Shown here: one piece after another, positions 4,255 through 21,863 of the stretch | Numbering within the stretch: the first letter of the stretch is position 1 | How the letters are laid out: the number at the start of each line of letters is the position of its first letter | IMG/VR virus record: IMGVR_UViG_3300032046_005453 | Coordinates: 1 to 23,592 of that record | DNA from: a virus | Length of the DNA: 23,592 bases | Reading direction: 5' to 3' (one strand) | Made by a program: the position numbers and the translations under genes | The notes under the pieces: generated by a model | What the model was told of the DNA's origin: nothing | Database searches by the model: none | Seen by the model: the letters and a program-made list of their open reading frames with translations, nothing else

Positions 4255-5259
4255 TTAAATAGGGTATATAAGATATGTTCCTGGGTCATTTGGTTCAGCA
4301 AAATAACCTACAGATTTTAAAAAATTATGCAATGGCTTATATACGCCCATTATATAATTTTTTTCTTCATAATCTTCAGAATAATAATTAAATAATTCCA
4401 TCCCATTATTTGCATAGCTTCCTTCGCCTGTCCATATAGAATTATTACTACCATCATTTCTAAAATCTTCTCCATCTTTAAACCATGCTTTTGGGTACAT
4501 TTTCTCAAGAGCATTCATTAATTCATCTCTACTCATAGCTTGCATTCCTTCATTTAATTTTTGTTCTCCAAACAAGTCTCCGCCACCTTCTTCTTCCACC
4601 ATTTCTTTAGCAGTATCTCTTGCAACTTCTAAAGCTCCGTCATAATTTCCACTTTCTAATAATGATTCTATATCATCTAATCCACTAGCAAAAGTAGCTG
4701 AATCAGGTAAGTCAGAACTAGAAAGACCAATTATTTTATTAAGCATTTGATCGATCATTTTTACACCTGCGCCTCTAGCGCCGTTTTCTGCAATCCATTT
4801 TTGAAGAGTTGCGATTCCTTTTTCAGTAAGACCCTCATTTAATTTTTTCTCTGGGCTCATTGCTTTATAAAGATTTTTTTTATTAATACCATCTTCAAAA
4901 CTATTCTTTCCTAAAGAGTCAAATTTTTGGCCATCATTCTTGATATCTTTTTTAGCAACATCCATTGCACTCTTGTCAATTTCATTTGTTGGAGCAGGAA
5001 CTTTATAGCCTTTATCTTTTGCAACATTTAAAGCTGCAGCTACAGCTCTATCATGCTTATAGCCTTTATCTTTCTGTAAATGAGAGATTTCTTTTCCAAT
5101 AAAATTACTAGCTTTTTTAGTATATTTATTTTCGCTGAGAACTTTTAAATCATTCTCAATTCTAGATTTTTCTTCATTTAAAGTGTGAAGTTTGTAAAGA
5201 TTTTGAACTTGCTCCTGAATATAGCTTGCAAGATCTTTTTTGGATATTTGTTTTTTCAT
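4255..5259 (-). CDS. Candidate internal head protein with N-terminal tag and internal L-N-E sites
   Basis: A 334-residue protein that I do not recognise as a whole. Residues 1-25 form an amphipathic helix (ISKKDLASYIQEQV) like the N-termini of five other proteins in the window. Residues 53-90 hold a Lys-rich module with AVAAALNVAKDKGYKVP; it reminds me of a short module found in other phage proteins, but this is tentative. L-N-E occurs at 27-29, 140-142 (before Gly) and 235-237 (before Gly); cutting there would release pieces of about 113, 95 and 97 residues. It has its own TATTTAT element and terminator, so it is probably a single-gene transcript. Packaging into the head and processing by the gp21-like protease are inferred. 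Confidence 0.6.
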   Translation of the reverse strand: MKKQISKKDLASYIQEQVQNLYKLHTLNEEKSRIENDLKVLSENKYTKKASNFIGKEISHLQKDKGYKHDRAVAAALNVAKDKGYKVPAPTNEIDKSAMDVAKKDIKNDGQKFDSLGKNSFEDGINKKNLYKAMSPEKKLNEGLTEKGIATLQKWIAENGARGAGVKMIDQMLNKIIGLSSSDLPDSATFASGLDDIESLLESGNYDGALEVARDTAKEMVEEEGGGDLFGEQKLNEGMQAMSRDELMNALEKMYPKAWFKDGEDFRNDGSNNSIWTGEGSYANNGMELFNYYSEDYEEKNYIMGVYKPLHNFLKSVGYFAEPNDPGTYLIYPI

Positions 5260-5278
5260 GACTGTTTAAATGTTTCCA

Positions 5279-5285
5279 ATAAATA
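5279..5285 (-). promoter_or_regulatory. TATTTAT element of the 334-aa gene
   Basis: The coding strand reads GCTATTTATTGGAAAC, 19 nt before the ATG, in the 43-nt gap after the 169-aa gene. Confidence 0.5.
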
Positions 5286-5302
5286 GCCATGAAAATCAAA
5301 AA

Positions 5303-5812
5303 CTAGGAGGATTTTTTATAGATTGTGAAGCATTTTGAATTTGTGAATACATCAGCTTTAGACATAATTTTGCTCAATCTTACAGTCTCGTCAAAAAGCT
5401 CAGTATTCTTCTTAGGACTGATAGGTATTTTAACTAAGTTGTTTATGTTACAAGTGTGTAAATATAACTCCACAGATATGTAGTTTCTTTTGTTGTTATA
5501 ATTGAAATTTTCAGGTATGTTTTTTATGAATATATTATCATTTTCTCTTGGAAAAAATTTATTCTTTGAGAGCTCTTTTTTTAACCCGTGGGAATATATT
5601 TTACTAAGTTCTTTGTCAAGTAAATCTTTTAGAGTTTTCTGATCCTTATTTTTATAATTATCTTTAGGTTCTAACCAGAAGCTTGCAAAAATATAAATAG
5701 TGTCAGGAGCCTCCCTGTTCTCTACAGTTCCTACTTTTACACTGATATTGTTATTTCCTAATAACTTATCACTTATTTTAATCTCTCTTGCTGTTCTCTT
5801 ATTATTTGACAT
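5303..5812 (-). CDS. Hypothetical protein, 169 aa
   Basis: I do not recognise this protein. It is Lys/Asn/Ile-rich, with no signal peptide or membrane segment. The middle has alternating hydrophobic residues suggesting beta strands (TIYIFASFWLEP, NYISVELYLHTC). It has no L-N-E site and no N-terminal tag, which sets it apart from its neighbours on both sides. Its leader lacks the TATTTAT element. It lies 43 nt before the 334-aa gene on the same strand and 65 nt beyond the terminator of the 271-aa gene. The ORF is open over its whole length and fills the gap cleanly, so it is probably real. Confidence 0.7.
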   Translation of the reverse strand: MSNNKRTAREIKISDKLLGNNNISVKVGTVENREAPDTIYIFASFWLEPKDNYKNKDQKTLKDLLDKELSKIYSHGLKKELSKNKFFPRENDNIFIKNIPENFNYNNKRNYISVELYLHTCNINNLVKIPISPKKNTELFDETVRLSKIMSKADVFTNSKCFTIYKKSS

Positions 5813-5877
5813 ACATTAAAACAATTTTGTAAAATATAATAAAAAATGACTTATAAACAAAATAATGAACAAAAAAA

Positions 5878-5899
5878 AGCCCCCAATTTCTTGGAGGCT
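5878..5899 (-). terminator. Intrinsic terminator of the 271-aa gene
   Basis: A 9-bp stem with one mismatch (5878-5886 with 5891-5899) has a tttc loop and is followed on the minus strand by eight T. It lies 21 nt past the stop of the 271-aa gene. Confidence 0.8.
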
Positions 5900-5920
5900 C
5901 TCATAGTAAGGCTTTTAGTG

Positions 5921-6736
5921 TTATTTACTTAATACTTCTTTTAATTCTAAATTTGAAATTATACACTCATCAACGTTCACAAAATTTACATTTTTCATGT
6001 TTTCTATTTTGTTTTTAAATGTATCTAAAAGATCAATAGTTATAGGCTCTTTTTCTTCTAATAATTTAGATTTTATTGTAGAAAGATTTTCTTCTTTAAT
6101 TTCATTTAAATAACTAATCTTTACTTTTTCGTCAGCCACTAAAATAGAAAATACTTTTTTCTCTTCTTCGTTTAAATGTTTGTATCTTTCATTGAAATTG
6201 TTTATTGCAACTTTCGTAACAAACTTCCAGGCATCATCCACTAATTTAGGACTGTCAGTCTTCTCTTCAATCTTTTCACTCTCATTAACCACAGGTCTAG
6301 TTAGATGTCCTAAAACAAATTCATAAGCCTCTTGTTCTCTTTCGAAATCAGAAAACCCTGGCTTTGAAACAGATTCAATTAAAGTGTTTACACTCTCAGC
6401 TAATTTTGCATTAAATTTAGATGCAATATGAATATCATCAAGTAGTTCTCTTCTTAATGTTTTGTTTTCAGATAAAATATTATCCCATCTTTCGTTGATA
6501 AAAAGGTGAAGATTTTGTGTTATAAATCTCTCTGCTAATCTTTCTTTTGAAAAAGGTTTTGCATTTTCGAAATTTTTATAAGCATAATGTTGTTTAGTTA
6601 AGATTGGGCTTTTCTTAACAGCTGTTAAAAACTTATCTAAAGTTTTGCTTTTTTCTTCTCTTATGAGTTCTGAAGCTGATAATCTAGCTATAGTATCTCT
6701 AATAGCGCCGAAGTTAAATGATATGTTTTCTTTCAT
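5921..6736 (-). CDS. Helical protein of unknown function, possible head protein
   Basis: A 271-residue charged protein, mostly helical by composition and not recognised. The start MKENISFNFGAIRDTIARL is loosely similar to the N-terminal tag of six other proteins here but less convincing. It has two L-N-E triplets in the C-terminal half (HLNEEE and YLNEIK) and I-R-E near residue 26, the kind of sites enriched in the capsid-associated proteins. It is transcribed divergently from the VWA gene, from its own TATTTAT element, and closed by a terminator. A role in head assembly is only suggested by location and these sites. Confidence 0.65.
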   Translation of the reverse strand: MKENISFNFGAIRDTIARLSASELIREEKSKTLDKFLTAVKKSPILTKQHYAYKNFENAKPFSKERLAERFITQNLHLFINERWDNILSENKTLRRELLDDIHIASKFNAKLAESVNTLIESVSKPGFSDFEREQEAYEFVLGHLTRPVVNESEKIEEKTDSPKLVDDAWKFVTKVAINNFNERYKHLNEEEKKVFSILVADEKVKISYLNEIKEENLSTIKSKLLEEKEPITIDLLDTFKNKIENMKNVNFVNVDECIISNLELKEVLSK

Positions 6737-6754
6737 TATTGGTAAGATTTATAT

Positions 6755-6761
6755 ATAAATA
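6755..6761 (-). promoter_or_regulatory. TATTTAT element of the 271-aa gene
   Basis: The coding strand reads GATATTTATATATAAATC, 18 nt before the ATG, inside the divergent region shared with the VWA gene. Confidence 0.5.
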
Positions 6762-6850
6762 TCTAAAAAAAGATAATTATGTTTCAAATTTGGTTAATTG
6801 GTAAAGAAATAATATATTTGTTTTCTATAAAAAAACCAAATAAATTAACT

Positions 6851-9154
6851 ATGATCAACTATTTAAAAATTAAAGACGGCCTATTTTTAGCGAATCAGAC
6901 CGTTGCGTTAGAAGCGCAAAAAGAAAAAGCTGTAGAGCTCCACACTCAACACATCTTCGTAATTGACTGTTCTGGGTCAATGTCAGGAGAATTACCTACC
7001 ATCCGTAAAGATTTGTACAACAAAATCTCAACAATGCTTAAACCAAAAGATTCTGTTACCATTATTTGGTTTTCAGGAAGAGGTCAATATGGCGTATTAT
7101 TGGAAGATTATAATATCAGTAGTGGCATTTCTCTTGAAAAAGTAAGAGATGTTATTAATAAACATTTAACCCCTCAAGGTCTTACAGCATTTAAAGATTC
7201 TTTAGTTGAAGTTAAAGAAGTTGTTAATAGAGTTCGTAGTAACAACCCCGAAATGTTACATTCTATGTTTTTCCTTACTGATGGATGTGATAATCAATAT
7301 TCTACAAAAGAAATATTAAAAGCAACATCTGATCTTAAGGAATATTTAAACAGTGCTACAATGGTTGAATATGGTTGGTATTGTAATAAAGAATTAATGG
7401 CCCAAATGGCTCAGGAAATTGGTGGTGTTCACACATTTAGCCAAAACTTCCAGGATTATGAACCATATCTTACAAAACAATTTACAGGAGATAATAAAGG
7501 AAAGAGAAAGTATATCCAACTTGATAATACTGCAAAATTTGACCTTGTATTTAATATTGTTGATAATGAAATCGTTCTTTATAAATCAAACGAAAACAAT
7601 GAGATTTTAGTAAGTATTGATGGTGAGACGAATATTTTTTATTTTACCGACAAAGCTGTAGGTACTACTATGGATCCTAATTTTGCAGAAGATATGGCTA
7701 GTAAAGGTCAAGACCATCCAATGATGCAAGGTTTGTATGCTTCACTATTTGCATTAAGCAGAAAAGGTGATTATAATACTGTTTCTGAAGTTTTAAAATA
7801 CTTAGGAGATGCTTATTTAATCGTTGAAAAAGCAAATACATTCGGAACTCAAAAAATTAATGAGCTAGAACAGAAATTTAAAGACGCTGTTAACGATAAA
7901 TCAAAAAGATATACTGAAGGGTATAATCCTAAATTAGAGCCAGCAGAAGACGCATATTGCGTTCTAGACCTGATTGAAGACCTTATGTCTAAAGACGAAA
8001 ACTTGTGGTACCCACAACATGAAGCTTTCAATTATAAAAGAATTGGTAGTAAGACTGTTGCTAAATTAGCAGAGCTTTCAGAAGAAGACAGAAATAGAGT
8101 TAATGACCTTCTTGATCAAAATAAATTAGATGAGGCGCACAAGCTTCTTGAAGAAATTCAAAAGAACATGCCAGCTCAACTTAAATTTATTTACGACGGA
8201 GATTTACAACCTTTCCAAATATCTGATCTTGTATGGAATGAATCAAGAGCTAATTTATCGGTTCAAGTGAACTATAAAGGACATGTTGTTCTTCCTGCAA
8301 ATTCATTTAATCTTCCAGCTGAATTTAAAACTAACCAATTCAGAAATTATACTTTGATTAAAGACGGTGTTGTTTATAATTATACACTTCCTGTTTCTTT
8401 ATCAAAAGAAACTTTTGACAAACTTCAATCTAATGGATTATTAAAAGGAGAATTTTTTGAAGCTAATAAAATTTATGTTCTTGATTTCTCTAAGATTCCT
8501 GTTATTAATAGAAAAATGGCAAAGACTCTTTCTGCAAAAGAATTGTTTACAAACGAATGGGAACTTACAAAATTAAAAGCTGCAAATGCAGTTTATAATT
8601 TCTACAAGAAAAAACATTTCGAAAATCTTGGTGCGAAATTTTCTGAGACTTATGGTGTTGATGCAGCTAAGTGGCTTTCAGAACTTGGTCTTAAAGAATA
8701 TGGATTTACCCCTCCATCTAAGACAGAAAAAACAGGAGAAGAAATTGATGTTAACGTTTTAGAAGTTAAAATAGAAAAACTAAGTTCTTCAATAGTTAAG
8801 AAAGATATTGAAACTGCTGAGAAAAAAATTCTTGCAGAAAGTAAAGACTTATCTCCTAAAGAAGCGTTAACAGAAAATGCTATTAGAGAATTTAATCAAT
8901 TCCTTGGATTGCTCAAAGATGTTAAGGACAAAGATAAAATGCTTGAGAATTGGCTTTATGATAAATCTAAAGCATTCAGAAGTCAAAAGAATAAATTGAT
9001 GTCTGATATCTCTAAGGCTAAATTTTTAACCATTGTAGGCAAAAATTGGTTCGTAGAATTTACTGATAGAAGTCAAAATGAAATGACATTAAACATTGAC
9101 TCTAAAGAGTTGAAGTTTAAAGTTGAAGACAAGATGGAAACAGTTAAGATCTAA
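6851..9154 (+). CDS. Large von Willebrand factor A (VWA) domain protein
   Basis: A 767-residue protein with an N-terminal VWA domain, a fold that binds a metal ion and protein partners. The metal site (MIDAS) is complete: D39-C-S41-G-S43 after a hydrophobic strand (HIFVI), Thr112 in LTAF, and Asp144 in FLTDG. The remaining 550 residues are charged and mostly helical, with no domain I recognise. No signal peptide or membrane segment is seen, so it should act in the cytoplasm or in the virion. I chose ATG 6851 because the in-frame ATG at 6779 lies within the divergent promoter region and adds an atypical 24 residues; a near-match TATTTGT sits 29 nt before 6851. It is the only plus-strand gene between two minus blocks, with a shared terminator at its end. 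Confidence 0.85.
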   Translation: MINYLKIKDGLFLANQTVALEAQKEKAVELHTQHIFVIDCSGSMSGELPTIRKDLYNKISTMLKPKDSVTIIWFSGRGQYGVLLEDYNISSGISLEKVRDVINKHLTPQGLTAFKDSLVEVKEVVNRVRSNNPEMLHSMFFLTDGCDNQYSTKEILKATSDLKEYLNSATMVEYGWYCNKELMAQMAQEIGGVHTFSQNFQDYEPYLTKQFTGDNKGKRKYIQLDNTAKFDLVFNIVDNEIVLYKSNENNEILVSIDGETNIFYFTDKAVGTTMDPNFAEDMASKGQDHPMMQGLYASLFALSRKGDYNTVSEVLKYLGDAYLIVEKANTFGTQKINELEQKFKDAVNDKSKRYTEGYNPKLEPAEDAYCVLDLIEDLMSKDENLWYPQHEAFNYKRIGSKTVAKLAELSEEDRNRVNDLLDQNKLDEAHKLLEEIQKNMPAQLKFIYDGDLQPFQISDLVWNESRANLSVQVNYKGHVVLPANSFNLPAEFKTNQFRNYTLIKDGVVYNYTLPVSLSKETFDKLQSNGLLKGEFFEANKIYVLDFSKIPVINRKMAKTLSAKELFTNEWELTKLKAANAVYNFYKKKHFENLGAKFSETYGVDAAKWLSELGLKEYGFTPPSKTEKTGEEIDVNVLEVKIEKLSSSIVKKDIETAEKKILAESKDLSPKEALTENAIREFNQFLGLLKDVKDKDKMLENWLYDKSKAFRSQKNKLMSDISKAKFLTIVGKNWFVEFTDRSQNEMTLNIDSKELKFKVEDKMETVKI

Positions 9155-9177
9155 AAAATGTCAAAACGATTATAGCA

Positions 9178-9209
9178 AAAAAAGGGGCCTAATAATAAGC
9201 CCCTTTTTT
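9178..9209. terminator. Bidirectional terminator between VWA and 111-aa genes
   Basis: A perfect 11-bp stem, aaaaaaggggc (9178-9188) with gcccctttttt (9199-9209), lies between two converging genes. It has A and T runs on both sides, so it can end both transcripts. Confidence 0.9.
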
Positions 9210-9228
9210 AATTTCCATAAGTCAAAGA

Positions 9229-9564
9229 TTATACTAATCCTTGTAGTCTTGTATATCCTGCTGTTAATCCAGTTGAGTTAAAAGTTGTGTGTTCGCCTGG
9301 TTTAACATTGTTACCAACAAACTCAAATCCTAAAGTAGCTCCTGTTGGAGTTGCAGTGTTTTTGAAGTAGTAAGAATTTCTTTCGTAATCAAAAATAGTA
9401 ACACCATGTCTTGCAAGAGCAGCACGATTTGTGATTTGTTCAGAAACTCTTAAGCCTTTCATAGCAACAAATTTATTACTAGGAATAACTTTTACTAAAG
9501 CTTTAGACCCATCTTTATATTCTATTTTGAAGGGGTTTGACGAGAAATTGATTAAAATTACCAT
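9229..9564 (-). CDS. Small beta-rich protein, possible virion component (111 aa)
   Basis: This is not a recognised family. The sequence is largely short hydrophobic/polar strands with Gly and Pro turns, no membrane segment and no tag. Residues 25-60 (VKVIPSNKFVAMKG, then VSEQIT at 40-45, an Arg, then VTIFDY) resemble the 90-aa protein at 12547-12819 (VGVILKPGQF, VSDQIT at 38-43, Arg, then ISIEKD), so the two may be paralogues. Short proteins of this style occur among phage head, neck and decoration proteins, but I cannot say which. It has its own TATTTAT element and a terminator, suggesting strong single-gene expression. Confidence 0.7.
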   Translation of the reverse strand: MVILINFSSNPFKIEYKDGSKALVKVIPSNKFVAMKGLRVSEQITNRAALARHGVTIFDYERNSYYFKNTATPTGATLGFEFVGNNVKPGEHTTFNSTGLTAGYTRLQGLV

Positions 9565-9585
9565 AATTGTATGTTTTTGTTTATT

Positions 9586-9592
9586 ATAAATA
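9586..9592 (-). promoter_or_regulatory. TATTTAT element of the 111-aa gene
   Basis: The coding strand reads TCTATTTATAATAAAC, 21 nt before the ATG. Confidence 0.5.
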
Positions 9593-9643
9593 GAAACACC
9601 TTTTTTTAAAAATGGCAGTTTGATAAAAATATTTAAATAAAAA

Positions 9644-9659
9644 AAGGGCCTAAGCCCTT
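9644..9659 (-). terminator. Intrinsic terminator of the GT-GNAT operon
   Basis: The stem aagggc (9644-9649) pairs with gccctt (9654-9659) around a 4-nt loop. On the minus strand a T-rich run follows. It lies 8 nt past the acetyltransferase stop. Confidence 0.75.
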
Positions 9660-9667
9660 CTTAATTT

Positions 9668-10018
9668 TTATAATTCTCTCCACATATAATGCATCGTTTC
9701 ATCTACATTCCCGTCTATGATAAAACCACATTCTTTATAGAAATTGATTGCAGTCTCATTTTCAACTAATACTGCTAGTCTAATAGTTTTAGCTCCTTTT
9801 TCTTTTTCTGCCTCTACTACTTTTTCCATTAACGTTTTTCCATATCCTTCTCCTCTAAATTGCTCGCCAATAGAAAACATCATAATTACTTTGTCGTTTT
9901 CAGACATTGATTCTTTAGGCTTTATGAAATCAGTATGCCCAACCCAAGCGCCTCCCACATAGACCCCGTCTACATTTAGGCTATAATAATCATCTCTTTT
10001 AAGTGAAATTTCTGACAT
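9668..10018 (-). CDS. GNAT-family N-acetyltransferase
   Basis: A 116-residue protein of the GNAT fold, which moves an acetyl group from acetyl-CoA to an amine. The acetyl-CoA-binding motif A is clear: FSIGEQFRGEGYGKTLM, with RGEGYG at 55-60 fitting R/Q-x-x-G-x-G/A. Motif B follows as NETAINFYKECGF (87-99), typical of GNAT C-termini. It is short for the family and lacks much of the usual N-terminal region, but the catalytic core is present. It starts 12 nt after the glycosyltransferase stop, so the two are cotranscribed. The substrate may be an amino sugar transferred by that partner, or a protein; the sequence does not decide. Confidence 0.85.
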   Translation of the reverse strand: MSEISLKRDDYYSLNVDGVYVGGAWVGHTDFIKPKESMSENDKVIMMFSIGEQFRGEGYGKTLMEKVVEAEKEKGAKTIRLAVLVENETAINFYKECGFIIDGNVDETMHYMWREL

Positions 10019-10030
10019 TTTTTTAAATTT

Positions 10031-11323
10031 TTAAATTGAAACAATCGATTCGTTAACTTTTTTATTTACTTCTTTTTTAGCCATAATGCTTTTATACATT
10101 TCAGCTCTTTGAGCAGTAACAATCTTTAAATCATATTTTTCTTTTACGTAATTATGAAGATTGTCTGCAAGCATTTGTCTATATTCAGGATCTTGAACAA
10201 CCTTCTTAATAGCCTTATACCAATCATCTTTATTATCTTTGATTAATATACCTGTCTCACCATCTTTTAATAGTTCTTTATATATACCAAAGTTTTGAGC
10301 AATTAAAACTTTCTTTTTCATTCCAGCTTCAATTATTTTTAATTCAGATTTAACTTCGTTAAAATAATTTACTCTGTTTATTATTTGGCCCTTATCTGTC
10401 TTATAAACATCGATAGCGTCAATTGGAGCTAAACATACATCACAATAGTCATAATGTTTAGCATATTGAGTAAGAGGCAGTGTCCATCTTCTAATATAAT
10501 TTTTCTTATATTGTTCAGGGTAATCTTCTCTCTTAATTTTTTTAAGCCATTTGAAATATTCAGGATCTTCACTTTCTTCTCTGTAATTTGCTGTGAAAAT
10601 CTCCTCAAACTTATTCCAGATAGTTTCGTGTGGTTGAATTGATCTAGTAGTTCTAGAACCGTCAGGTTTAATTTCTGTGATTGTACCTCTTATGTCGTAA
10701 CCACACATGATCATTTGAAATTTATCTTTTAAATCCTTATTGTTATAAAGCATTCTCATTGAATTCTCCATAAGTTTTAAGTCATTAAAATGAGATGAAC
10801 CTCCAATCCATGAAACTCTACACTTACCACTTTCGTTAGGAACAGCTTCTGAGGTCCACATCTTATCATTCATATTTAATGCATTTGGTATAACCAAAAC
10901 ATTTGAATTTATTGGTTTTATATAACCAGCAAAGATATTTGTTGTTGTACTAACATAATCAGATTGCGCAATAACTTCTTTTATTTTTTCTGTTAACCCC
11001 TCTTTTTTAACAAGTTCATATAAAGGGTGAGTTGTAGGTGGTTCCCAAAAATCATCTATATCCATGATCATTGTCACGCCAAGTTCTTTTAGTTTAGAAA
11101 AAATTTCTCCCATTTTTTCATGGGGACCAAAATGTCTATGAAAATGTATGATATCAAATTGCTTTAGATATTCAAAATTATCAAAAGCTGGCGCTAGATT
11201 AATCTCTACATCAAACTCTTCTCCATGATACTTAGAAAGAGCCTGTGCAGGCCAGATATTACGAAAATGCCCTACGCCTTGACTGTCCGAAGGTGCCATT
11301 AAAATTTTAATTTTTTTGCTCAT
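10031..11323 (-). CDS. Glycosyltransferase, GT4-like (GT-B fold)
   Basis: A 430-residue sugar transferase. The N-terminal half has IIHFHRHFGP (58-67), MDIDDFWEPP (87-96) and VLVIPNALN (142-150), the usual signature between the two domains of GT4 enzymes. The second domain begins with VSWIGGSSHFNDL (170-182). The donor site near the C-terminus reads ELKIIEAGMKKKVLI, then GETGILI (355-361). A 90-residue polar insert (about 212-300) separates the strands. No signal peptide is seen, so it is cytoplasmic. It is first of a two-gene operon with the acetyltransferase. Its leader has no exact TATTTAT. This pair sits between two head-type genes and looks like an accessory insertion. Confidence 0.85.
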   Translation of the reverse strand: MSKKIKILMAPSDSQGVGHFRNIWPAQALSKYHGEEFDVEINLAPAFDNFEYLKQFDIIHFHRHFGPHEKMGEIFSKLKELGVTMIMDIDDFWEPPTTHPLYELVKKEGLTEKIKEVIAQSDYVSTTTNIFAGYIKPINSNVLVIPNALNMNDKMWTSEAVPNESGKCRVSWIGGSSHFNDLKLMENSMRMLYNNKDLKDKFQMIMCGYDIRGTITEIKPDGSRTTRSIQPHETIWNKFEEIFTANYREESEDPEYFKWLKKIKREDYPEQYKKNYIRRWTLPLTQYAKHYDYCDVCLAPIDAIDVYKTDKGQIINRVNYFNEVKSELKIIEAGMKKKVLIAQNFGIYKELLKDGETGILIKDNKDDWYKAIKKVVQDPEYRQMLADNLHNYVKEKYDLKIVTAQRAEMYKSIMAKKEVNKKVNESIVSI

Positions 11324-11384
11324 TTGCTTTTAATTTTAATGAAAATATATCCCTATAAAAAGTAAAAGTAAAGTAAAAACAAAA

Positions 11385-11407
11385 AAACCTGCTTTTTAGG
11401 CAGGTTT
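11385..11407 (-). terminator. Intrinsic terminator of the 350-aa gene
   Basis: The stem aaacctgc (11385-11392) pairs with gcaggttt (11400-11407) around a 7-nt loop, with T run on the minus strand. It is nearly the same sequence as the terminator at 12502-12528. Confidence 0.85.
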
Positions 11408-11412
11408 TAAAT

Positions 11413-12465
11413 TTAATATGTTTCATTAACCCACAGGTCAAACAAGTCAATTAGTTTTTTAATTCTAAGTTTTAATACATAAGTAGAGGCCCATGTATCC
11501 TCTTCGTTTAACCAGTTTATAAAAGCTTTTGGGTATTTAGGCAGTTTATCTATACCAATTAAATCTGAATACCACATATCTGCAAAGTCGCTAGCAGAAG
11601 CATAATTTTCATTAAATTTCTTTTTCATTGTTTTCCTAATCTCTTGTTTGACAAAGGATTCAAAATTTTCTTTAACTACAGTTTGTGAATCTGTTGATTT
11701 TGGAATTTTTCCTTCATAAAACTTAGGTATATTACGAATTATTTCCTTAACTTGTCTTAATTCTTCGTATGAAGTAGAATCAACAAAATCCTGTATTGAA
11801 TTAATTAATTTTGCAGGGATATTTCCATAAATAACCTTGTAATTGCCTTTATTGTTAAGGCCAAACCCTGCAATCGCTTTTGCAATTGAAGGTATAGTTA
11901 ATTTTTTAGTTATGTCCTCTTGTTTTTTTGTTTCTATACTTTGTTGGACTTTTTCTACAGCTTTTTCTTGTTTTCTTACTTTTGACCCTGATTTTAATGT
12001 TGCTTGATGTGCTGCTTGACTAGTAAAACCTTCTTTCTCAGAAGAATTTAATATAAATGAAACTGCATCGCTAGCATTATTAAAAATCTTACTTCCAACA
12101 GAAATATTCATTGTTCCGTTTTTAATAGGAAATTGTACTGTGATACCACCATTTTTATATGGGATGTAAACATATCTTCCAGACCTTCCATAGCCCATTG
12201 AAATACGGCTATAAATGTCGTTGTTTTTAAGTTCATCTCTAAGATGATTTATTGTTCCGCTTTTTTGACTAGTGAAAGCCCCTTTTCTACTGCGATATTC
12301 ACCACCACCACCATATTCATCTTCATCACGTTCATAATATTCAGGATCAGAAGAATCTATTTGATATTCTTTCCCAATTGGCTCTCCAGCGTCATTTGTT
12401 ATAGTAACCCAACTGCCTTCTTGGAGTGCTTGTCTTATTAATAACCTAAGATTGATATTTTTCAT
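11413..12465 (-). CDS. Candidate internal head protein with N-terminal tag (350 aa)
   Basis: An unrecognised protein. The first 17 residues, MKNINLRLLIRQALQEG, form an amphipathic tag like that of other proteins here, and LQE-G (14-17) fits the gp21-type L/I-x-E cleavage consensus; cutting there would remove just the tag. An acidic Gly-rich stretch follows (about 38-58). A beta-rich part comes next, including GRSGRYVYIPYKNGG and a YKVIYGN segment further on. A helical C-terminal half includes WLNEED. It has no membrane segment. It is a single-gene unit with a TATTTAT element 16 nt upstream and a terminator. Packaging in the head is inferred from the tag and the company it keeps. Confidence 0.6.
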   Translation of the reverse strand: MKNINLRLLIRQALQEGSWVTITNDAGEPIGKEYQIDSSDPEYYERDEDEYGGGGEYRSRKGAFTSQKSGTINHLRDELKNNDIYSRISMGYGRSGRYVYIPYKNGGITVQFPIKNGTMNISVGSKIFNNASDAVSFILNSSEKEGFTSQAAHQATLKSGSKVRKQEKAVEKVQQSIETKKQEDITKKLTIPSIAKAIAGFGLNNKGNYKVIYGNIPAKLINSIQDFVDSTSYEELRQVKEIIRNIPKFYEGKIPKSTDSQTVVKENFESFVKQEIRKTMKKKFNENYASASDFADMWYSDLIGIDKLPKYPKAFINWLNEEDTWASTYVLKLRIKKLIDLFDLWVNETY

Positions 12466-12481
12466 ATTATGAATGTTTTAC

Positions 12482-12488
12482 ATAAATA
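12482..12488 (-). promoter_or_regulatory. TATTTAT element of the 350-aa gene
   Basis: The coding strand reads TATATTTATGTAAAAC, 16 nt before the ATG. Confidence 0.5.
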
Positions 12489-12501
12489 TATTATAAAACG
12501 A

Positions 12502-12528
12502 AAAAACCCGCTTTTTAGGCAGGTTTTT
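12502..12528 (-). terminator. Intrinsic terminator of the 90-aa gene
   Basis: A 10-bp stem with one mismatch (12502-12511 with 12519-12528), T run on the minus strand. It shares the core gctttttaggcaggtttt with the terminator at 11385-11407. Confidence 0.8.
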
Positions 12529-12546
12529 AAATATTAATTCAGGTTT

Positions 12547-12819
12547 TTAACCTTTATAATCAGCAGCTTCTTGTCTGGCTTTTTCGATATCTGTTTGATC
12601 GTATGCCTCACAAAGATTTAGTTTTAAATCGTTGTCAACATCTTTTTCAATAGAAATAAAATTTCTTCTTCTTTGAGCATCCATAGATGAAGTGATTTGA
12701 TCACTTACAAGACAAAATTGACCAGGTTTTAATATTACACCAACCGTTACGGTGTTACTTTTTGCAGCAGCGATTTTAATATCTTGAGCCACTTTAGCGA
12801 TGTTTGTTACTTTCCACAT
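12547..12819 (-). CDS. Small protein, possible virion component (90 aa)
   Basis: This is not a recognised family. It has a beta-rich first 60 residues (TVTVGVILKPGQFCLVSDQI) and a charged helical tail ending DIEKARQEAADYKG. The segment around VSDQIT (38-43) aligns with VSEQIT in the 111-aa protein at 9229-9564. The Lys-Pro-Gly turn after a strand is common in short phage structural proteins, but no specific role can be named. It has its own TATTTAT element and terminator, so it may be an abundant late product. Confidence 0.7.
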   Translation of the reverse strand: MWKVTNIAKVAQDIKIAAAKSNTVTVGVILKPGQFCLVSDQITSSMDAQRRRNFISIEKDVDNDLKLNLCEAYDQTDIEKARQEAADYKG

Positions 12820-12833
12820 AATTTTTAGTTTTT

Positions 12834-12840
12834 ATAAATA
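12834..12840 (-). promoter_or_regulatory. TATTTAT element of the 90-aa gene
   Basis: The coding strand reads GATATATTTATAAAAAC, 14 nt before the ATG, in the 46-nt gap after the 403-aa gene. Confidence 0.5.
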
Positions 12841-12865
12841 TATCTCTTATCTACTTAAAAGTAAA

Positions 12866-14077
12866 TTATTTTTTGATATATCCTTTGTTTTTTGATATTC
12901 TATTTTTTGGCAAGAAATAACTTGTGCCATCGAAGTGCCATTCTTCCACTTCTTGATTTTCGTTCTTTAAAAAATCTCTTCTTCCAGCGCCTATATATTC
13001 TTTAAGAGCCTCAGGTAATTCAGACTTAGTAAAAGACCCATTATCATCAACTAACTTAGCCATATTCAAATCAAACGCAACAGCGTTCAATTCTGTAATG
13101 TCTCCATTGCCTTTAAATAGCCTATTTGATTCTTCCATTGGTCTCATGGCTTGAGATTGATCATAACCATAACCTTCATTTGGTGATGCTACTAATCCTG
13201 TTGGATGTATAGGAACTCCTGCTGAAGTTGTTGGAAGGTTGTTTGGATTTGGAATAGCATTAGGAGTTGCAATGTTATTACCCATCATACCTTTTTGAAT
13301 AAGGTCCTTTACAATCTTTGTAACAACAGCTTCAAGATCAACCGCAGTTGATATTTGAGCCATTATATTAGAATTGTCTGTTCCTGTGGTTTGAGGTAAA
13401 GATGGAGCTCCATATGGATTCTCTTTGTATTTTGCTTGAGCTTCAAAATCAGGATCAAATCTTTTTTCAATAAATTGAGAAGTCCCATTTACATAATTAA
13501 ATTCAATCTCACCAATTTTTTCAAACTTGGCCATATAAACTTCAGCTTTCTTTTTTCCTTCATTAACCCAAAAATCATTCATAGATTTTTTAACATCAGG
13601 ATTTTCAAAAGTTCTAAGAGGTGCATTGGTCAAATTTTCTCCACCATGACTTAATTCATTCATATCAAACACAATTACCTTTGCAGGCTCTATTTTGTTT
13701 AAGAATGATGGCAATTCAGGTGTATATGCAGGAATATTTCCTGAAGTACTTTGATCTATTTGTGTAGTTGAATTTGTGATTCCTGTTCCAAAATTATCAG
13801 CTTCTATTGATGGAGTGTAATATTTATTTGTAGGAACTTCTACATCACCTGTTTCTGTTGGCATTGCATTAGTAGGAGCTGCCATAGGCGGCCCTTCTGT
13901 TTGCTCAGGTATAATTTCAGGTATTGCGTTTCTAGCATTATCCATATTTTGTTTATATAAAATGTCTTTAACTATTTTATCTATAGCGGTACTATCTAAA
14001 ACTTCATTAAGGCCTTCGTTTTTTATTTCGTTAGCAATCATAACTTTAAGTTCCTCTATATTAATCTTTTCCGTCAT
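12866..14077 (-). CDS. Candidate internal head protein with N-terminal tag (403 aa)
   Basis: An unrecognised protein. Residues 1-22 (MTEKINIEELKVMIANEIKN) are an amphipathic tag, and L-N-E-V at 23-26 has the same four residues as the predicted capsid protein cut site. Next come a helix (27-50), a Pro/Thr/Asn-rich linker (about 51-125), a compact region with VIVFDMNELSHGG and EFNYVNGTSQFIEKRFDPDF, a second Pro/Asn-rich linker, and a C-terminal part with AVAFDLNMAKL and EEWHFDGTSYFLPKNRI. The latter two regions look alike (FDMNEL/FDLNMAK; YVNGTSQFIEKR/HFDGTSYFLPKN) and may be an internal repeat. No terminator is seen after it, so it may be read through into the 90-aa gene. Confidence 0.6.
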   Translation of the reverse strand: MTEKINIEELKVMIANEIKNEGLNEVLDSTAIDKIVKDILYKQNMDNARNAIPEIIPEQTEGPPMAAPTNAMPTETGDVEVPTNKYYTPSIEADNFGTGITNSTTQIDQSTSGNIPAYTPELPSFLNKIEPAKVIVFDMNELSHGGENLTNAPLRTFENPDVKKSMNDFWVNEGKKKAEVYMAKFEKIGEIEFNYVNGTSQFIEKRFDPDFEAQAKYKENPYGAPSLPQTTGTDNSNIMAQISTAVDLEAVVTKIVKDLIQKGMMGNNIATPNAIPNPNNLPTTSAGVPIHPTGLVASPNEGYGYDQSQAMRPMEESNRLFKGNGDITELNAVAFDLNMAKLVDDNGSFTKSELPEALKEYIGAGRRDFLKNENQEVEEWHFDGTSYFLPKNRISKNKGYIKK

Positions 14078-14092
14078 AGTTTAAATTTACTT

Positions 14093-14099
14093 ATAAATA
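14093..14099 (-). promoter_or_regulatory. TATTTAT element of the 403-aa gene
   Basis: The coding strand reads GATATTTATAAGTAAAT, 15 nt before the ATG. It faces away from the element of the PhoH gene in the same 90-nt divergent region. Confidence 0.5.
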
Positions 14100-14147
14100 T
14101 CTAGTTTTTTTCATTCTTAAGCTCTTTATTTTAAAGAAAAAAAGCTA

Positions 14148-14154
14148 TATTTAT
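14148..14154 (+). promoter_or_regulatory. TATTTAT element of the PhoH gene
   Basis: The plus strand reads TATATTTATAAAAAAC, 13 nt before the PhoH ATG. Its orientation follows its gene. Confidence 0.5.
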
Positions 14155-14167
14155 AAAAAACAATTAC

Positions 14168-14956
14168 ATGGGAGATAAAAAAAGGCCTAGCAAAAGAGTG
14201 CCAAGATATGAACAGGAAGAGATTCAATCTTATAAAAACAATTCACAATCCATTAGAAACGGAACTAATGAGTTCATAACTGTAAAGAAATTGGCTTTTG
14301 AATTGACAAAAAAGCAAAAGGAGCTAGTAAAGCTACTACATGGTAATAAAATCATTACCATTACAGGACCTCCAGGTACATCAAAAACATTTATTGCATG
14401 TTATGCCGCCATACAAGCTTATATGTCAGGAAAATGTAAGCATATAATTCTTTCTAAGCCAACAGAGATATTATCAGGGACAAAAGACCCAGGTGCTCTT
14501 CCAGGATCACTAGAAGAAAAAATGTCTGTTTATGCAGAATCTTTTCTTGATTCATTTGATGAAATTCTTGATAAAAAAGATTTTAAACACCTATGGAGCG
14601 ATAAAGTAATAGAGTTTAAGCCTGCTCAGTTTTTAAGAGGAAGAACTTTAAAAGATTCCTTTATTATAGTCGATGAGTTTCAGAATTTTGACATAAAAGC
14701 TCTTAAAAGTATTGTTACTCGTCTTGGGCGTAATAGTACAATAGTATTTATGGGGGACACTAGACAAAATGATATAAATAAAAAATACGTTGCTGTTGAC
14801 GCTTTTAATGAGATAATAAAACCAATTAAAGGCTGTGCCATTTTTCAATTTGAAAGAGCGGACATTGTACGTGAACAAATATTAATTGATATTGTTGATA
14901 GATTTGAGAAATTTGAGGACGAAGGCAGTCTACCAGCTACCCAAAAAGGAAATTAG
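14168..14956 (+). CDS. phoH: PhoH-like ATPase
   Basis: A 262-residue P-loop ATPase of the PhoH family, common in large phages; its role there is unsettled, with RNA-related and stress roles proposed. The Walker A region is GPPGTSKT (67-74), where Ser72 replaces the second glycine of G-x-x-x-x-G-K-T. Next come SKPTE, then the PhoH signature FLRGRTLKDSFIIVDEFQN (155-173), which holds Walker B Asp169-Glu170, and FMGDTRQND (194-202). The usual DEAQN is DEFQN here. The first 50 residues are a basic, polar extension. It is first in a two-gene plus-strand unit. Confidence 0.9.
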   Translation: MGDKKRPSKRVPRYEQEEIQSYKNNSQSIRNGTNEFITVKKLAFELTKKQKELVKLLHGNKIITITGPPGTSKTFIACYAAIQAYMSGKCKHIILSKPTEILSGTKDPGALPGSLEEKMSVYAESFLDSFDEILDKKDFKHLWSDKVIEFKPAQFLRGRTLKDSFIIVDEFQNFDIKALKSIVTRLGRNSTIVFMGDTRQNDINKKYVAVDAFNEIIKPIKGCAIFQFERADIVREQILIDIVDRFEKFEDEGSLPATQKGN

Positions 14957-14968
14957 AAAATTTCAAAC

Positions 14969-14975
14969 TATTTAT
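14969..14975 (+). promoter_or_regulatory. TATTTAT element of the 65-aa gene
   Basis: The plus strand reads ACTATTTATAAACAAA, 12 nt before the ATG at 14988. It is placed in the 31-nt gap after phoH, so the small gene may have its own transcript. Confidence 0.5.
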
Positions 14976-14987
14976 AAACAAAAAGTT

Positions 14988-15185
14988 ATGAGTAATCCAA
15001 ATGAATTAAATCCAACTGGAAAAAAGTTTGTAAACGAACTTATGAATCCAGACGAAGCTCTTAAAGAAGCTGTTAATCAAGCAAATCTTAAGAAGCCAAA
15101 AAATGATATTGTTGAAAAGTCAGGCATTCTGTTAACAAATGACGGAAGAACTGTTCTAAACGAAGACAAACAAGAAAATATCTAA
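14988..15185 (+). CDS. Small hypothetical protein, 65 aa
   Basis: An unrecognised polar protein (MSNPNELNPTGKKFVNELM at the start, TNDGRTVLNEDKQENI at the end), with no membrane segment or cysteine. The reading frame stays open upstream into phoH, but I chose ATG 14988: it comes just after the phoH stop, follows a TATTTAT element by 12 nt, and gives a start typical of this genome. It ends 6 nt before a strong terminator. Confidence 0.65.
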   Translation: MSNPNELNPTGKKFVNELMNPDEALKEAVNQANLKKPKNDIVEKSGILLTNDGRTVLNEDKQENI

Positions 15186-15188
15186 AAC

Positions 15189-15215
15189 AAAAAACCCCTT
15201 TTTAAGGGGTTTTGT
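15189..15215. terminator. Bidirectional terminator between 65-aa and 214-aa genes
   Basis: A perfect 10-bp stem aaaacccctt (15191-15200) with aaggggtttt (15204-15213), 3-nt loop, flanked by A and T runs. It serves two converging transcripts. Confidence 0.9.
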
Positions 15216-15218
15216 TTT

Positions 15219-15863
15219 TTAAGAAGGGTTCTTAATTATTTCTCTGACATTATTAAATTTGGAGGTTTTTAATTCTTCAAATCTTTCGCCACCTTCTGGT
15301 TTTCTGTAAACAGTAATTGTTCCAGGTCCACCAAGTTTCATATCGGACACTTTTAAGGCATCACCACTTTGAATACCTTCAATGTTTGTCTCTATTACTT
15401 TGTAAACGTTATTGTCAGAAAGTTTTTCTGCAATGAAATATTTACCTCCCCCTTGAATCTTAATTTTGTTTCCTTTTAAGAATTCTTCGTTTTTAAATTC
15501 ATTAAGAGATTTATTACTAAACACGCTAACGCCTTTAGATCCTATTTCTTGAGTTCCAGTTTCTATTTCTTGGCCAAGCTTGTTAAGATATTCAACTTTC
15601 TTTTCGTAAAATCTGATAAGTTTTCTAAGTACAGTAACTTGTTCTTCTTTTACTCTTTTAAGTTCAACATAATCTTCTTTTTCTACAGCCTTTTCTTCAT
15701 CAGATTTAAGCTTATCGAATTTCTTATTATATAATTGAATTAAACCAGCATCAATATCTTCGATAACATCTTCTAAATGCTCGAAAGCCTGAGACTCTTT
15801 CATAAGCTTCAGGCCTTCGTTTTTTATGTGTTCTTTCAAAGTATTAATATTGATTTTACTCAT
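15219..15863 (-). CDS. Candidate internal head protein with N-terminal tag (214 aa)
   Basis: An unrecognised protein. Residues 1-23 (MSKININTLKEHIKNEGLKL) match the tag seen in five other proteins and share INxxxLKxxIxNEGL spacing with the 403-aa protein (I-N-I-E-E-L-K, then I-K-N-E-G-L). A long charged helix or coiled coil follows (about 24-105), then a beta-rich domain (about 130-195) with KIKIQGGGKYFIAEKL and Gly-rich turns. L-N-E-F lies at 120-123, between the two parts. Its start overlaps the end of the 264-aa gene by 8 nt, so the two are translationally coupled. A terminator closes the operon. Confidence 0.65.
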   Translation of the reverse strand: MSKININTLKEHIKNEGLKLMKESQAFEHLEDVIEDIDAGLIQLYNKKFDKLKSDEEKAVEKEDYVELKRVKEEQVTVLRKLIRFYEKKVEYLNKLGQEIETGTQEIGSKGVSVFSNKSLNEFKNEEFLKGNKIKIQGGGKYFIAEKLSDNNVYKVIETNIEGIQSGDALKVSDMKLGGPGTITVYRKPEGGERFEELKTSKFNNVREIIKNPS

Positions 15864-16650
15864 TGTTGTCTAATTTTGCAAGCTTTCTCATTCTGTCAAC
15901 TTCATTTTGAAGTGCAGATTTTTGATTCTTATCAAGTCCTTCAGAAAGGATGTTTAAGTAAGGAGATTTAGTTTCTTTAGTTTCTGTAATAACTTTCTTT
16001 TTAGAATTTACAGATTCTTTTTGTAATGCTTGATCAGCAGTCATGCCTTGCTCAGCACCTACACCACCTTGAGTTTCTGCATATTCATCAACTTCTTCTT
16101 TGTCTTCATCTTCAGTACCTTCGATGTTACCTTCAACACCTTCAGTGTCTTCAGCACCTTCAGTACCATCAGAATCAACTTCAACCTCTTCAAATTCTTC
16201 GCCACCTTCAGCACCTTCAGCACCTTCAACATCTTCAGCACTTTCAGATTCTCCACCTAAAACAGCTTTGATTTTAGCTTCGATAGCAGCTCCAAGTTCA
16301 GCAAATTCGTCAGCAAGATTAAGCTCGCCTTTTTCTTCACTTTCACCTTCTCCTCCTTCTATACCAATTTCAAGAGTTTCTTCGTCTTCATCTTCTAAAA
16401 GATGAGAACCTTTCTTCTCGAATTTAGGCTTAAATTTTTCACCTTGACCACCGCCAAACGATTGACCTGGTGATAATTTTTCTGTCCCACCAGCTTCAAC
16501 TTCTTCTAAAGAATTATCTTCAGCGTCCATTTGACCAAGTTCTTCATTGATCTGCTTAATTCTAGACTTTAACTTATTTTTAGTCATTAATCTTTGGAAT
16601 TCTTCCTTAATGATTTGATTAACTTCGTTCCAACTTGTTTTGTTTGCCAT
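15856..16650 (-). CDS. Acidic core-like protein with tag and scaffold-like C-terminus (264 aa)
   Basis: Residues 1-22 carry the amphipathic tag (NEVNQIIKEEFQRLMTK). I-N-E-E lies at 34-37. The middle (about 83-200) is extremely acidic, with Glu/Gly/Ala repeats of the type EGAEGAEGGEEFEE. Near the end L-S-E-G (235-238) is a good L/I-x-E site. The final helix EVDRMRKLAKLDNNE resembles the scaffold's last residues EARRMKQLAGLSKNSEE, both with R-M-[KR]-x-L-A-x-L. Acidic internal proteins are typical of T4-type prohead cores (gp67, gp68), so a second scaffold or core protein is my best reading. It is the middle gene of a three-gene operon. Confidence 0.65.
   Translation of the reverse strand: MANKTSWNEVNQIIKEEFQRLMTKNKLKSRIKQINEELGQMDAEDNSLEEVEAGGTEKLSPGQSFGGGQGEKFKPKFEKKGSHLLEDEDEETLEIGIEGGEGESEEKGELNLADEFAELGAAIEAKIKAVLGGESESAEDVEGAEGAEGGEEFEEVEVDSDGTEGAEDTEGVEGNIEGTEDEDKEEVDEYAETQGGVGAEQGMTADQALQKESVNSKKKVITETKETKSPYLNILSEGLDKNQKSALQNEVDRMRKLAKLDNNE
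16103..16254 (-). repeat. Low-complexity GAA/GGT codon repeat in the acidic protein gene
   Basis: On the plus strand the pattern is repeated variants of the 9-mer ccttcagca. It encodes the Glu/Gly/Ala/Val/Asp tract and opens long but false antisense frames. Length change by slippage is plausible. Confidence 0.75.
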
Positions 16651-16672
16651 AATATTTGTTTTTTAGTGGTTT

Positions 16673-17038
16673 TTATTTTTGTGATTTTAACTCCTCATTT
16701 TGTTTTTTAAGAGAAGCAATTTCTTCTTTAAGTTTATTAACCTCGTTCAATTCTTCTTCTTTAAGCGTATTTGCCGCTTCATCTTTTGTTTGCATATCTC
16801 TTTCAAGTTGTGCAATATGAGAGATGTTCTGGAAATCATTTACAAATCCAGTTTTAGATTTTTTAGCAATATCATGAGGATTATTGAAACCGAAAGTTCC
16901 AACCCATCCAACTTCATTTAATTGCTTTAATTCTGTATTGATAGAAAGAACATTTTCATAAAGTTCTTTTTTTCTTTTTATTTTAAGCGCCTCTTCTACG
17001 ATAGCTGCTTTTATACTAGATGGAGTTATTTTTTTCAT
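16673..17038 (-). CDS. Candidate internal head protein with tag and coiled coil (121 aa)
   Basis: An unrecognised small protein. Residues 1-23 (MKKITPSSIKAAIVEEALKI) form the tag, with IVE-E at 13-16. L-N-E-V occurs twice, at 40-43 and 97-100, the same tetrapeptide as in the capsid protein cleavage region and the 403-aa protein. The middle has a Gly/Asn/Phe-rich turn segment (GWVGTFGFNNP, 44-54). The end (about 84-120) is a strong heptad-type coiled coil, NKLKEEIASLKKQNEELK. It is first in an operon with the 264- and 214-aa genes (22-nt gap, then 8-nt overlap). A role in the prohead core is inferred. Confidence 0.65.
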   Translation of the reverse strand: MKKITPSSIKAAIVEEALKIKRKKELYENVLSINTELKQLNEVGWVGTFGFNNPHDIAKKSKTGFVNDFQNISHIAQLERDMQTKDEAANTLKEEELNEVNKLKEEIASLKKQNEELKSQK

Positions 17039-17050
17039 ACTAATTTATTA

Positions 17051-17057
17051 ATAAATA
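17051..17057 (-). promoter_or_regulatory. TATTTAT element of the three-gene core operon
   Basis: The coding strand reads GATATTTATTAATAAAT, 12 nt before the ATG of the 121-aa gene. The two downstream genes of the operon have no copy. Confidence 0.5.
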
Positions 17058-17139
17058 TCTAAAAAAATTGATTTTCGGAAGACTTTTTTATAAATTTATC
17101 TTCAAACCAACATATATAAATAATTAAAATTTTTAAAAC

Positions 17140-17457
17140 ATGGAAAATTTAATAATAGGCACCAAAGAAAACTTTAACAACCTAATAGAGTCAGACAAAT
17201 TAAGTATTGTAGACTTCTGGGCGGCATGGTGTGGTCCATGTAAAAACCAAATACCAATTTTAGACGAATTCGCCAAATTAAACCCTGATGTTCAGGTTAT
17301 TAAGGTTAATGTCGATGAAAATTCAGAGTTAGCCACTTCTTATGGAATTAGAAGTATTCCTACTATTGTATATATAAAGAATGGTACAGAACTAAAAAGA
17401 GTGTCTGGAGTACAGCAAATAAACGCATTAAATACAACTAAAACAGAGCTAGCATGA
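17140..17457 (+). CDS. Thioredoxin
   Basis: A 105-residue thioredoxin, full length for the family, that reduces disulphides through two cysteines. The active site is WCGPC (30-34) in VDFWAAWCGPCK, with the buried Asp25. The cis-proline loop reads RSIPT (71-75, Pro74), and KNGTELKRVSG fits the last strands. No signal peptide, so it is cytoplasmic. Its TGA stop overlaps the start of the next gene by 4 nt (ATGA), tying it to the glycan operon. T4-like phages often carry a thioredoxin or glutaredoxin for ribonucleotide reductase, but no such enzyme is in this window. Confidence 0.95.
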   Translation: MENLIIGTKENFNNLIESDKLSIVDFWAAWCGPCKNQIPILDEFAKLNPDVQVIKVNVDENSELATSYGIRSIPTIVYIKNGTELKRVSGVQQINALNTTKTELA

Positions 17458-18257: not shown

Positions 18258-18258
18258 T

Positions 18259-19636: not shown

Positions 19637-19641
19637 ATAAA

Positions 19642-21862: not shown

Positions 21863-21863
21863 T

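Follow-up and report, generated by a model that had tools for sequence, protein, structure and literature searches.

The stretch of DNA analyzed here, called the window, is a 23,592-nt fragment of an uncultured T4-like phage, a virus of bacteria (IMGVR_UViG_3300032046_005453). It contains a T4-like head module with the order protease, scaffold, capsid on one strand (3465-4133, 1968-3395 and 226-1884) and, upstream of these genes, six genes for proteins of 334, 350, 403, 214, 264 and 121 residues. An initial annotation had noted that these six proteins, otherwise different, begin with a common amphipathic segment, and had read it as a capsid-targeting signal. The six open reading frames do lie at the places given, all on the minus strand, and their neighbors are those announced: gp21 (PF03420), a scaffold recognized by position, and gp23 (PF07068). 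Two peptides are considered below. The class I tag is the N-terminal segment; the class II peptide is the tail at the scaffold's C-terminus, which recurs on other proteins. The features are as follows (a slash marks a predicted cut).

226-1884, minus: major capsid protein, T4 gp23 type, 552 residues (PF07068, E=1.2e-71; phrog_138, major head protein).
1705-1884, minus: predicted capsid N-terminal propeptide ending QAMLNE/VTLDSS (residue 60), from the capsid alignment and by analogy to T4 gp23.
1968-3395, minus: scaffold (gp22 position), 475 residues, acidic, without class I tag; assigned only by position between the protease and capsid genes and by a C-tail as in gp22-like proteins, with no match in Pfam or PHROGs.
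1971-2012, minus: class II peptide, the scaffold C-tail RMKQLAGL-SKNSEE (motif scan).
3465-4133, minus: head maturation protease, T4 gp21 / peptidase S77, 222 residues (PF03420, E=4.8e-32; phrog_207, E=2.8e-52).
4255-5259, minus: 334-residue tagged protein (tag rank, module shuffling, site positions), with apparent modules joined at LNE sites (residues 27-29, 140-142 and 235-237).
5173-5259, minus: its class I tag, MKKQISKKDLASYIQEQVQNLYKLHTLNE/, with [LIM]xE here in 3/3 distinct orthologue N-termini.
11413-12465, minus: 350-residue protein with a marginal tag; no relatives found.
12418-12465, minus: its marginal class I tag, MKNINLRLLIRQALQE/GS (left-out score 1.4 bits).
11608-11664, minus: an internal tag-like stretch of the same protein, FESFVKQEIRKTMKKKFNE/N, residues 268-286 (31st of 112,609 internal positions).
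12866-14077, minus: 403-residue tagged protein (tag rank 11 of 79).
14003-14077, minus: its class I tag, MTEKINIEELKVMIANEIKNEGLNE/V (left-out ranking); LxE is retained in only part of the orthologues.
15219-15863, minus: 214-residue tagged protein (tag rank 4 of 79).
15795-15863, minus: its class I tag, MSKININTLKEHIKNEGLKLMKE/S (hidden Markov model, left-out ranking, orthologue alignment).
15856-16650, minus: acidic protein of 264 residues that has both peptides (first of 79 families in tag rank; C-tail in 7/7 orthologues).
16543-16650, minus: its class I tag, MANKTSWNEVNQIIKEEFQRLMTKNKLKSRIKQINE/, with the core IKE kept in 7/7.
15859-15894, minus: its class II C-tail, RMRKLAKLDNNE (motif scan).
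16673-17038, minus: 121-residue tagged protein (tag rank 9 of 79).
16913-17038, minus: its class I tag with a coiled-coil extension, ending KQLNE/VGW (orthologue alignment).

Relatives of the protease are encoded at 14 loci, and eight relatives (contigs of 20-96 kb) were read fully or nearly so. To keep the tag from influencing the clustering, gene families were built from residue 31 to the end of each protein. Each family was left out in turn: a position matrix was made from the other tagged families and from tags outside the window (see below) and was scored on the family's own N-termini. The ranking covers the 79 gene families of the window and the eight relatives that have at least two distinct N-termini. 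The 264-residue protein is first, the 214-residue protein fourth, the 334-residue protein second and sixth (two subtypes), the 121-residue protein ninth and the 403-residue protein 11th; untagged families have a mean of -3.9 bits (standard deviation 3.4). The rank-sum p is 2e-8 for all tagged families and 3e-6 for the five window families alone. This profile comparison across the window and its relatives, of the kind that the initial annotation had proposed, places five of its six families in the top 11. The sixth, the 350-residue protein, has a tag that is only marginal, since no relatives were found and it reaches just 1.4 bits alone (about 30th of 177 families). The 271-residue protein, suggested as a weaker seventh case, was rejected with a left-out score of -0.8. 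Rank 3 is occupied by a further family, whose genes in relatives come shortly after the capsid gene. This family, which starts MNLRKLIRENIENI, is present in G002, G004 and G001 (e.g. L005 14049-14708) and lies past the window end.

The real core of the tag is h-x-x-h-I-x-(x)-E, as in LASYIQE (334), VNQIIKE (264) and IKAAIVE (121), with variants one residue off in LKEHIKNE (214), LKVMIANE (403) and LRLLIRQ (350). The pattern first written down, M-[K/S/T]-x-(x)-I-x-x-x-x-L/I-x-x-x-I-x-[E/N]-E, is slightly off. A weak-pseudocount position matrix and a single-sequence hidden Markov model are too noisy for the 121-, 350- and 403-residue proteins, and family means are used instead. With the single-sequence model, the 334-, 214- and 264-residue proteins stand out, their scores being reached by 2-10 of 2454 internal 45-mers; the 403-residue protein is weak (54 of 2454), and the 350- and 121-residue proteins do not stand out. 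In the window group, an [LIM]-x-E is kept in residues 14-50 in 4/6 tagged families vs. 5/38 others (p=0.011); four of the five untagged families with it are the capsid, the scaffold, the protease and the 271-residue neighbor.

Viral contigs were scanned for exact matches to the IUPAC (International Union of Pure and Applied Chemistry) pattern M-K-K-x-x-L-[KRQ]-x-I-I-[KRQ]-E-E. At least 120 stretches match, vs. 0 for a control with a reordered core (EE-x-II). Outside the window, the tag consensus is MKKSELRQIIKEEI-x-K-V-L-N-E. Among the matches listed, to which the counts of proteins, clusters and sites in this and the next paragraph refer, the tag is carried by at least 89 proteins at at least 70 loci and starts at residue 1 in 80 of these proteins, and the tagged bodies fall into 76 unrelated clusters (blastp E<=1e-3). 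A scan of 88 outside tagged proteins gave two weak Pfam and five PHROG matches without function; nearly all of these proteins lack a known family. Tagged proteins occur in tandem arrays at several loci (L065, L121, L052 and L099), and contigs of 160-180 kb have 4-10 tag candidates each. A tag pattern of slightly greater length occurs on only 2 contigs, of one metagenomic bin, among 84,980 genomes of bacteria and archaea. A tblastn search with the 20-residue tag against annotated phage records gave no usable match, nor did the 264- and 334-residue proteins. The class I and class II peptides had no match in the open-access literature, and descriptions elsewhere are possible.

The outside set was chosen by residues 1-13, which are the search pattern; only residues 14 onward are thus independent evidence. 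There, residue 18 is mostly L (about 1.5 bits) and residue 20 mostly E, and the conservation stops exactly after residue 20 (1.64 bits at 20, 0.17 at 21 and about zero after). An [L/I]-x-E occupies residues 18-20 in 49/76 tags, vs. 0.8 expected. Anywhere in residues 14-26, [LIVMF]-x-E is present in 71/81, vs. 16% of cargo 13-mers, and in shuffles of this test the mean is 31 and the maximum 45. Tags with deletions retain the site (EELNE, EELLNE, EEIQKLNE). The isoleucine codons at conserved tag residues vary freely (ATT/ATC/ATA = 45/25/19) and the upstream bases are not conserved, which implies selection on the peptide; a leader shared at the DNA level was ruled out on the same grounds.

As to the second peptide, the scaffold ends in RMKQLAGL and the 264-residue protein in RMRKLAKL (K for G), the latter tail being present in 7/7 orthologues. 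A scan of viral contigs for RMQKLAGI gave 59 C-terminal cases, 1-4 residues from the end and mostly on gp22-like scaffolds. The same peptide lies near the N-terminus of 13 proteins with unrelated bodies (loci within L240-L319), and in 13/13 an [L/I]-x-E follows at a distance of nine residues or fewer (8.6% in the background; p ~1e-14). Class I and class II N-terminal tags are found together in 4/4 large contigs. Like the 264-residue protein, three others (L251 10419, L253 12686 and L308 9121) combine a class I-like N-terminus with a class II C-tail after [I/M]NE. The simplest reading is that RMQKLAGI would be a scaffold docking peptide, borrowed by other proteins and cut off in maturation.

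In T4, according to the passages on processing in PMC5694885 and PMC9026906, gp21 cuts C-terminal to the glutamate of [L/I]-x-E in the internal proteins, gp23, gp24 and Alt. Both S77 and gp23 are encoded in 12/18 tagged contigs, including 10/10 of those of at least 113 kb, a size split chosen post hoc; the other six contigs are fragments of 53-105 kb. In contigs drawn by an unrelated random 20-mer, S77 occurs in 0/9 (12/18 vs. 0/9, p=0.001). The capsid alignment has MLNE/V in the group of the window and mostly [LIV]-x-E/ in the outside group, just ahead of a variable stretch.

Sites of the same type occur within the bodies. In the family of the 334-residue protein, relatives combine the same modules in differing orders with [L/I]NE at the joints (KKLNE/G and QKLNE/G in the window, INE/G and INE/S in relatives). 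Two relatives have a second, internal tag, and one has two tandem genes in place of the 334-residue gene, with a tag at each start. The family also includes a module KASNFIGKEISHLQKDKGYKHDRAVAAALNVAKDKG with no Pfam match. For the 214-residue protein, an AlphaFold2 prediction (mean predicted local distance difference test score 73, predicted template modeling score 0.41) gives the tag, a helical hairpin (6-110), a disordered linker and a beta domain (133-211); a fold search with the beta domain against the PDB gave no match under E=0.001. The linker contains SLNE/F (119-122), with E122 invariant and L, M or I two residues earlier in 5/5 aligned sequences. The clearest site is in the 121-residue family, with LNE or INE in 7/7 orthologues, then an insertion of variable length and then a conserved segment. 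The [L/I]NE density is 3.5 times background; this has moderate weight only, because composition also enriches the permuted motifs (1.5-1.9 times).

For the 403-residue protein, the structural model, with a tag helix at residues 7-20, a break at 21-28 and a helix at 29-50, has low confidence and is too poor for a fold search. The protein (12866-14077) apparently contains one segment twice in similar form, as KVIVFDMNEL and as AVAFDLNMAK. In the 350-residue protein, the internal tag-like stretch before FNE/N is suggestive only of an internal tag. An ArdA-like antirestriction domain in this protein was rejected (Pfam E=0.069, far short of the cut-off, with no relatives to strengthen it). A defense or anti-defense identity for the tagged window proteins was likewise discarded, with no credible PADLOC match.

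The class I tag resembles the capsid-targeting sequence (CTS) of the T4 proteins IPI, IPII, IPIII and Alt. Both are short N-terminal peptides on unrelated proteins with a gp21-type [L/I]-x-E end, both have, by eye, the same spacing of two targeting hydrophobics and of the I-x-E processing residues, and both occur in viruses with the head protease and gp23. In T4 IPIII, residues 4 and 7 govern targeting and residues 8 and 10 processing (PMC9026906). The translated T4 proteins IPIII (MKTYQEFIAE) and gp24 (MAKINELLRE) read h-x-x-h-[I/L]-x-E and, by eye, the spacing is that of L-R-Q-I-I-R-E in the outside tag and of LASYIQE, VNQIIKE and IKAAIVE in the window. On the other hand, the class I tag has another sequence, is longer (about 20-42 residues vs. 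10-19 in T4), is on many more proteins and sometimes repeated within one, and is used beside a second, scaffold-derived peptide.

In the giant phages SPN3US and phiKZ, a gp21-like protease also removes N-terminal propeptides of head and ejection proteins after glutamate, but these are mostly of 111-254 residues (from the parts of PMC5694885 and PMC10052503 that treat them). The first 15 residues are common to gp53 and gp54 of SPN3US, which are paralogues, and those parts describe no tag common to unrelated proteins. In phage P1, the first 30 residues of DarB suffice to carry a foreign reporter into the head, whereas the Dar proteins have no common N-terminal sequence by BLAST (PMC9024508). The literature cited here describes neither a tag of the breadth of class I nor a scaffold-derived one like class II. 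In herpesviruses, the scaffold has a C-tail that attaches to the capsid protein and is released by the maturation protease. The class II peptide is similar in arrangement, a short C-tail after a protease site and a likely docking point, except that it is reused at the N-terminus of unrelated proteins.

We read the shared N-terminus as a cleavable head-targeting propeptide, well supported at the sequence level, that would work like the T4 CTS, and we give this reading a probability of roughly three in four. The amphipathic helix, with its core h-x-x-h-I-x-E, would dock new proteins onto the assembling scaffold core, as suggested by T4 and by the proteins with both peptides. The docked proteins would be enclosed as the gp23 shell closes, and the gp21-type S77 protease would cut after the [L/I]-x-E at the tag end, which would free the mature protein within the head and clear the docking peptide. 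The proteins would then be present in the virion and be delivered to the host. In the 334-residue family and the 214-residue protein, the interdomain [L/I]-N-E sites could let one tagged precursor yield several pieces. RMQKLAGI, the scaffold C-tail, would be a second docking peptide serving the same purpose on other proteins.

The initial annotation saw a real feature and named its likely mechanism, and the sequence-level features of a T4 CTS that were tested are found, the residues of IPIII being matched in spacing only. Its count of at least six proteins is not supported, with the 350-residue protein marginal and the 271-residue protein rejected, nor is "cargo" for all of them. The 264-residue protein is more likely a second core or scaffold component than delivered cargo, because it has the scaffold C-terminal motif. 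Inclusion in the head and delivery carry more doubt for the 264- and 121-residue proteins, which are conserved and syntenic and may be core parts. With less assurance, although we lean toward it, a two-peptide code may extend to many uncultured T4-like phages, with class I (MKKSELRQIIKEEI..LNE/) and class II (RMQKLAGI..[L/I]xE/) both cleaved by S77 and 264-like proteins bridging the two docking surfaces.

Several observations weigh against the head-targeting propeptide. A strict hidden Markov model of the outside tags recognizes only the 264-residue protein among the six window proteins; its other matches are the family encoded past the capsid gene and two proteins in the vicinity of other genes. 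The T4 CTS gives no significant score with the tag models, so that the T4 match is one of spacing, not of shown homology. The six window proteins have no credible match in Pfam, PHROGs or PADLOC, and their bodies are without known domains. A motif as short as [L/I]-x-E is frequent in proteins rich in glutamate. The capsid site would be the counterpart of the T4 gp23 cut after E65, a cut deduced from the alignment, and the predicted head location of the tagged proteins is read from the genome of an uncultured phage. Finally, two terminase large subunits have a tag-like N-terminus, and further such N-termini occur next to baseplate genes. A similar helix is thus no proof by itself of head location, and a tag in any one protein should be called only with its [L/I]-x-E end and its context. 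The two terminase subunits (G028 29755 and G018 98820) start with the tag-like helix MSQDLKQIIRDEYLKCAQ, likely a false positive of the tag model.

The alternative that survives best is that the tagged proteins are mainly prohead core, like T4 gp67, gp68 and gp22, and are destroyed in maturation, the tag being a core assembly helix with little or nothing delivered. We regard this as possible, though rather unlikely. It would account for the synteny of five families across relatives, unlike the fast-changing T4 internal proteins, for the acidic 264-residue protein with its scaffold C-tail, for the long helical hairpin predicted at the start of the 214-residue protein, and for the multiple internal [L/I]NE sites, which suit proteins cut into pieces. 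However, the outside tag is on 76 unrelated clusters of small proteins (among the matches listed), often in tandem, for which exchangeable cargo is a better fit; a predicted folded beta domain follows the internal site of the 214-residue protein, and the modules of the 334-residue family are shuffled.

It is less probable still, and in our view doubtful, that the tag docks proteins not to the head core but to a membrane, a chaperone, a polymerase or a replication compartment of the phage, its [L/I]-x-E end being coincidental. Amphipathic helices do bind many partners, the look-alikes on terminase and baseplate-adjacent proteins exist, and the tags are scattered over contigs of 160-180 kb. The N-terminus of T4 gp23 also directs the protein to GroEL, according to the title of a reference cited in PMC10052503. 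But the conservation ends sharply at [L/I]-x-E, shortened tags retain the site, the tag co-occurs with S77 and gp23, the scaffold-tail peptide behaves alike, and the double-tagged proteins join both peptides. A third alternative, that the N-termini merely form helices as many do, or stem from duplication of a 5' gene start, and have no function at the protein level, is very improbable and largely refuted: helices rich in Lys, Glu and Ile are common in AT-rich phages, and with the 350- and 271-residue proteins the pattern was all too readily seen by eye, but the reordered pattern gives 0 vs. at least 120 matches, the rank tests reach 3e-6 to 2e-8, the codons vary at conserved residues and the upstream DNA is not conserved.

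Proteins carried in the phage head and injected first are known for few phages and are usually not predictable from sequence. If the head-targeting propeptide is real, a conserved 20-residue tag ending in a protease site would make the head content readable from the genomes of many uncultured T4-like phages, and the code would reveal packaged and injected proteins directly, including precursors cut into several cargo modules. It would yield many candidate injected proteins, almost none with a known family, and short portable peptides with which foreign proteins could be brought into heads. It also suggests that the scaffold tail may be a docking peptide borrowed by other proteins.

Between and beyond the tagged genes are genes for a PhoH-like protein, a thioredoxin, an acetyltransferase, glycosyltransferases and a homing endonuclease. 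Downstream of phoH, a 65-residue open reading frame (14988-15185, plus strand; MSNPNELNPTGKKFVNELMNPDEAL) has orthologues at the same place in relatives; a longer version starting with TTG (14886-15185, plus strand) overlaps phoH, and that start is likely not the true one. In one relative (L014 / G011, about 12697-12713), a break resembling a TGA or a frameshift splits the capsid gene in the record. In the closest relative (L002 / G001, 14445-16095), the capsid gene consists of two open reading frames; past it (G001 16305-22109) are unrelated small genes, mostly on the other strand, after which the tagged downstream family resumes.

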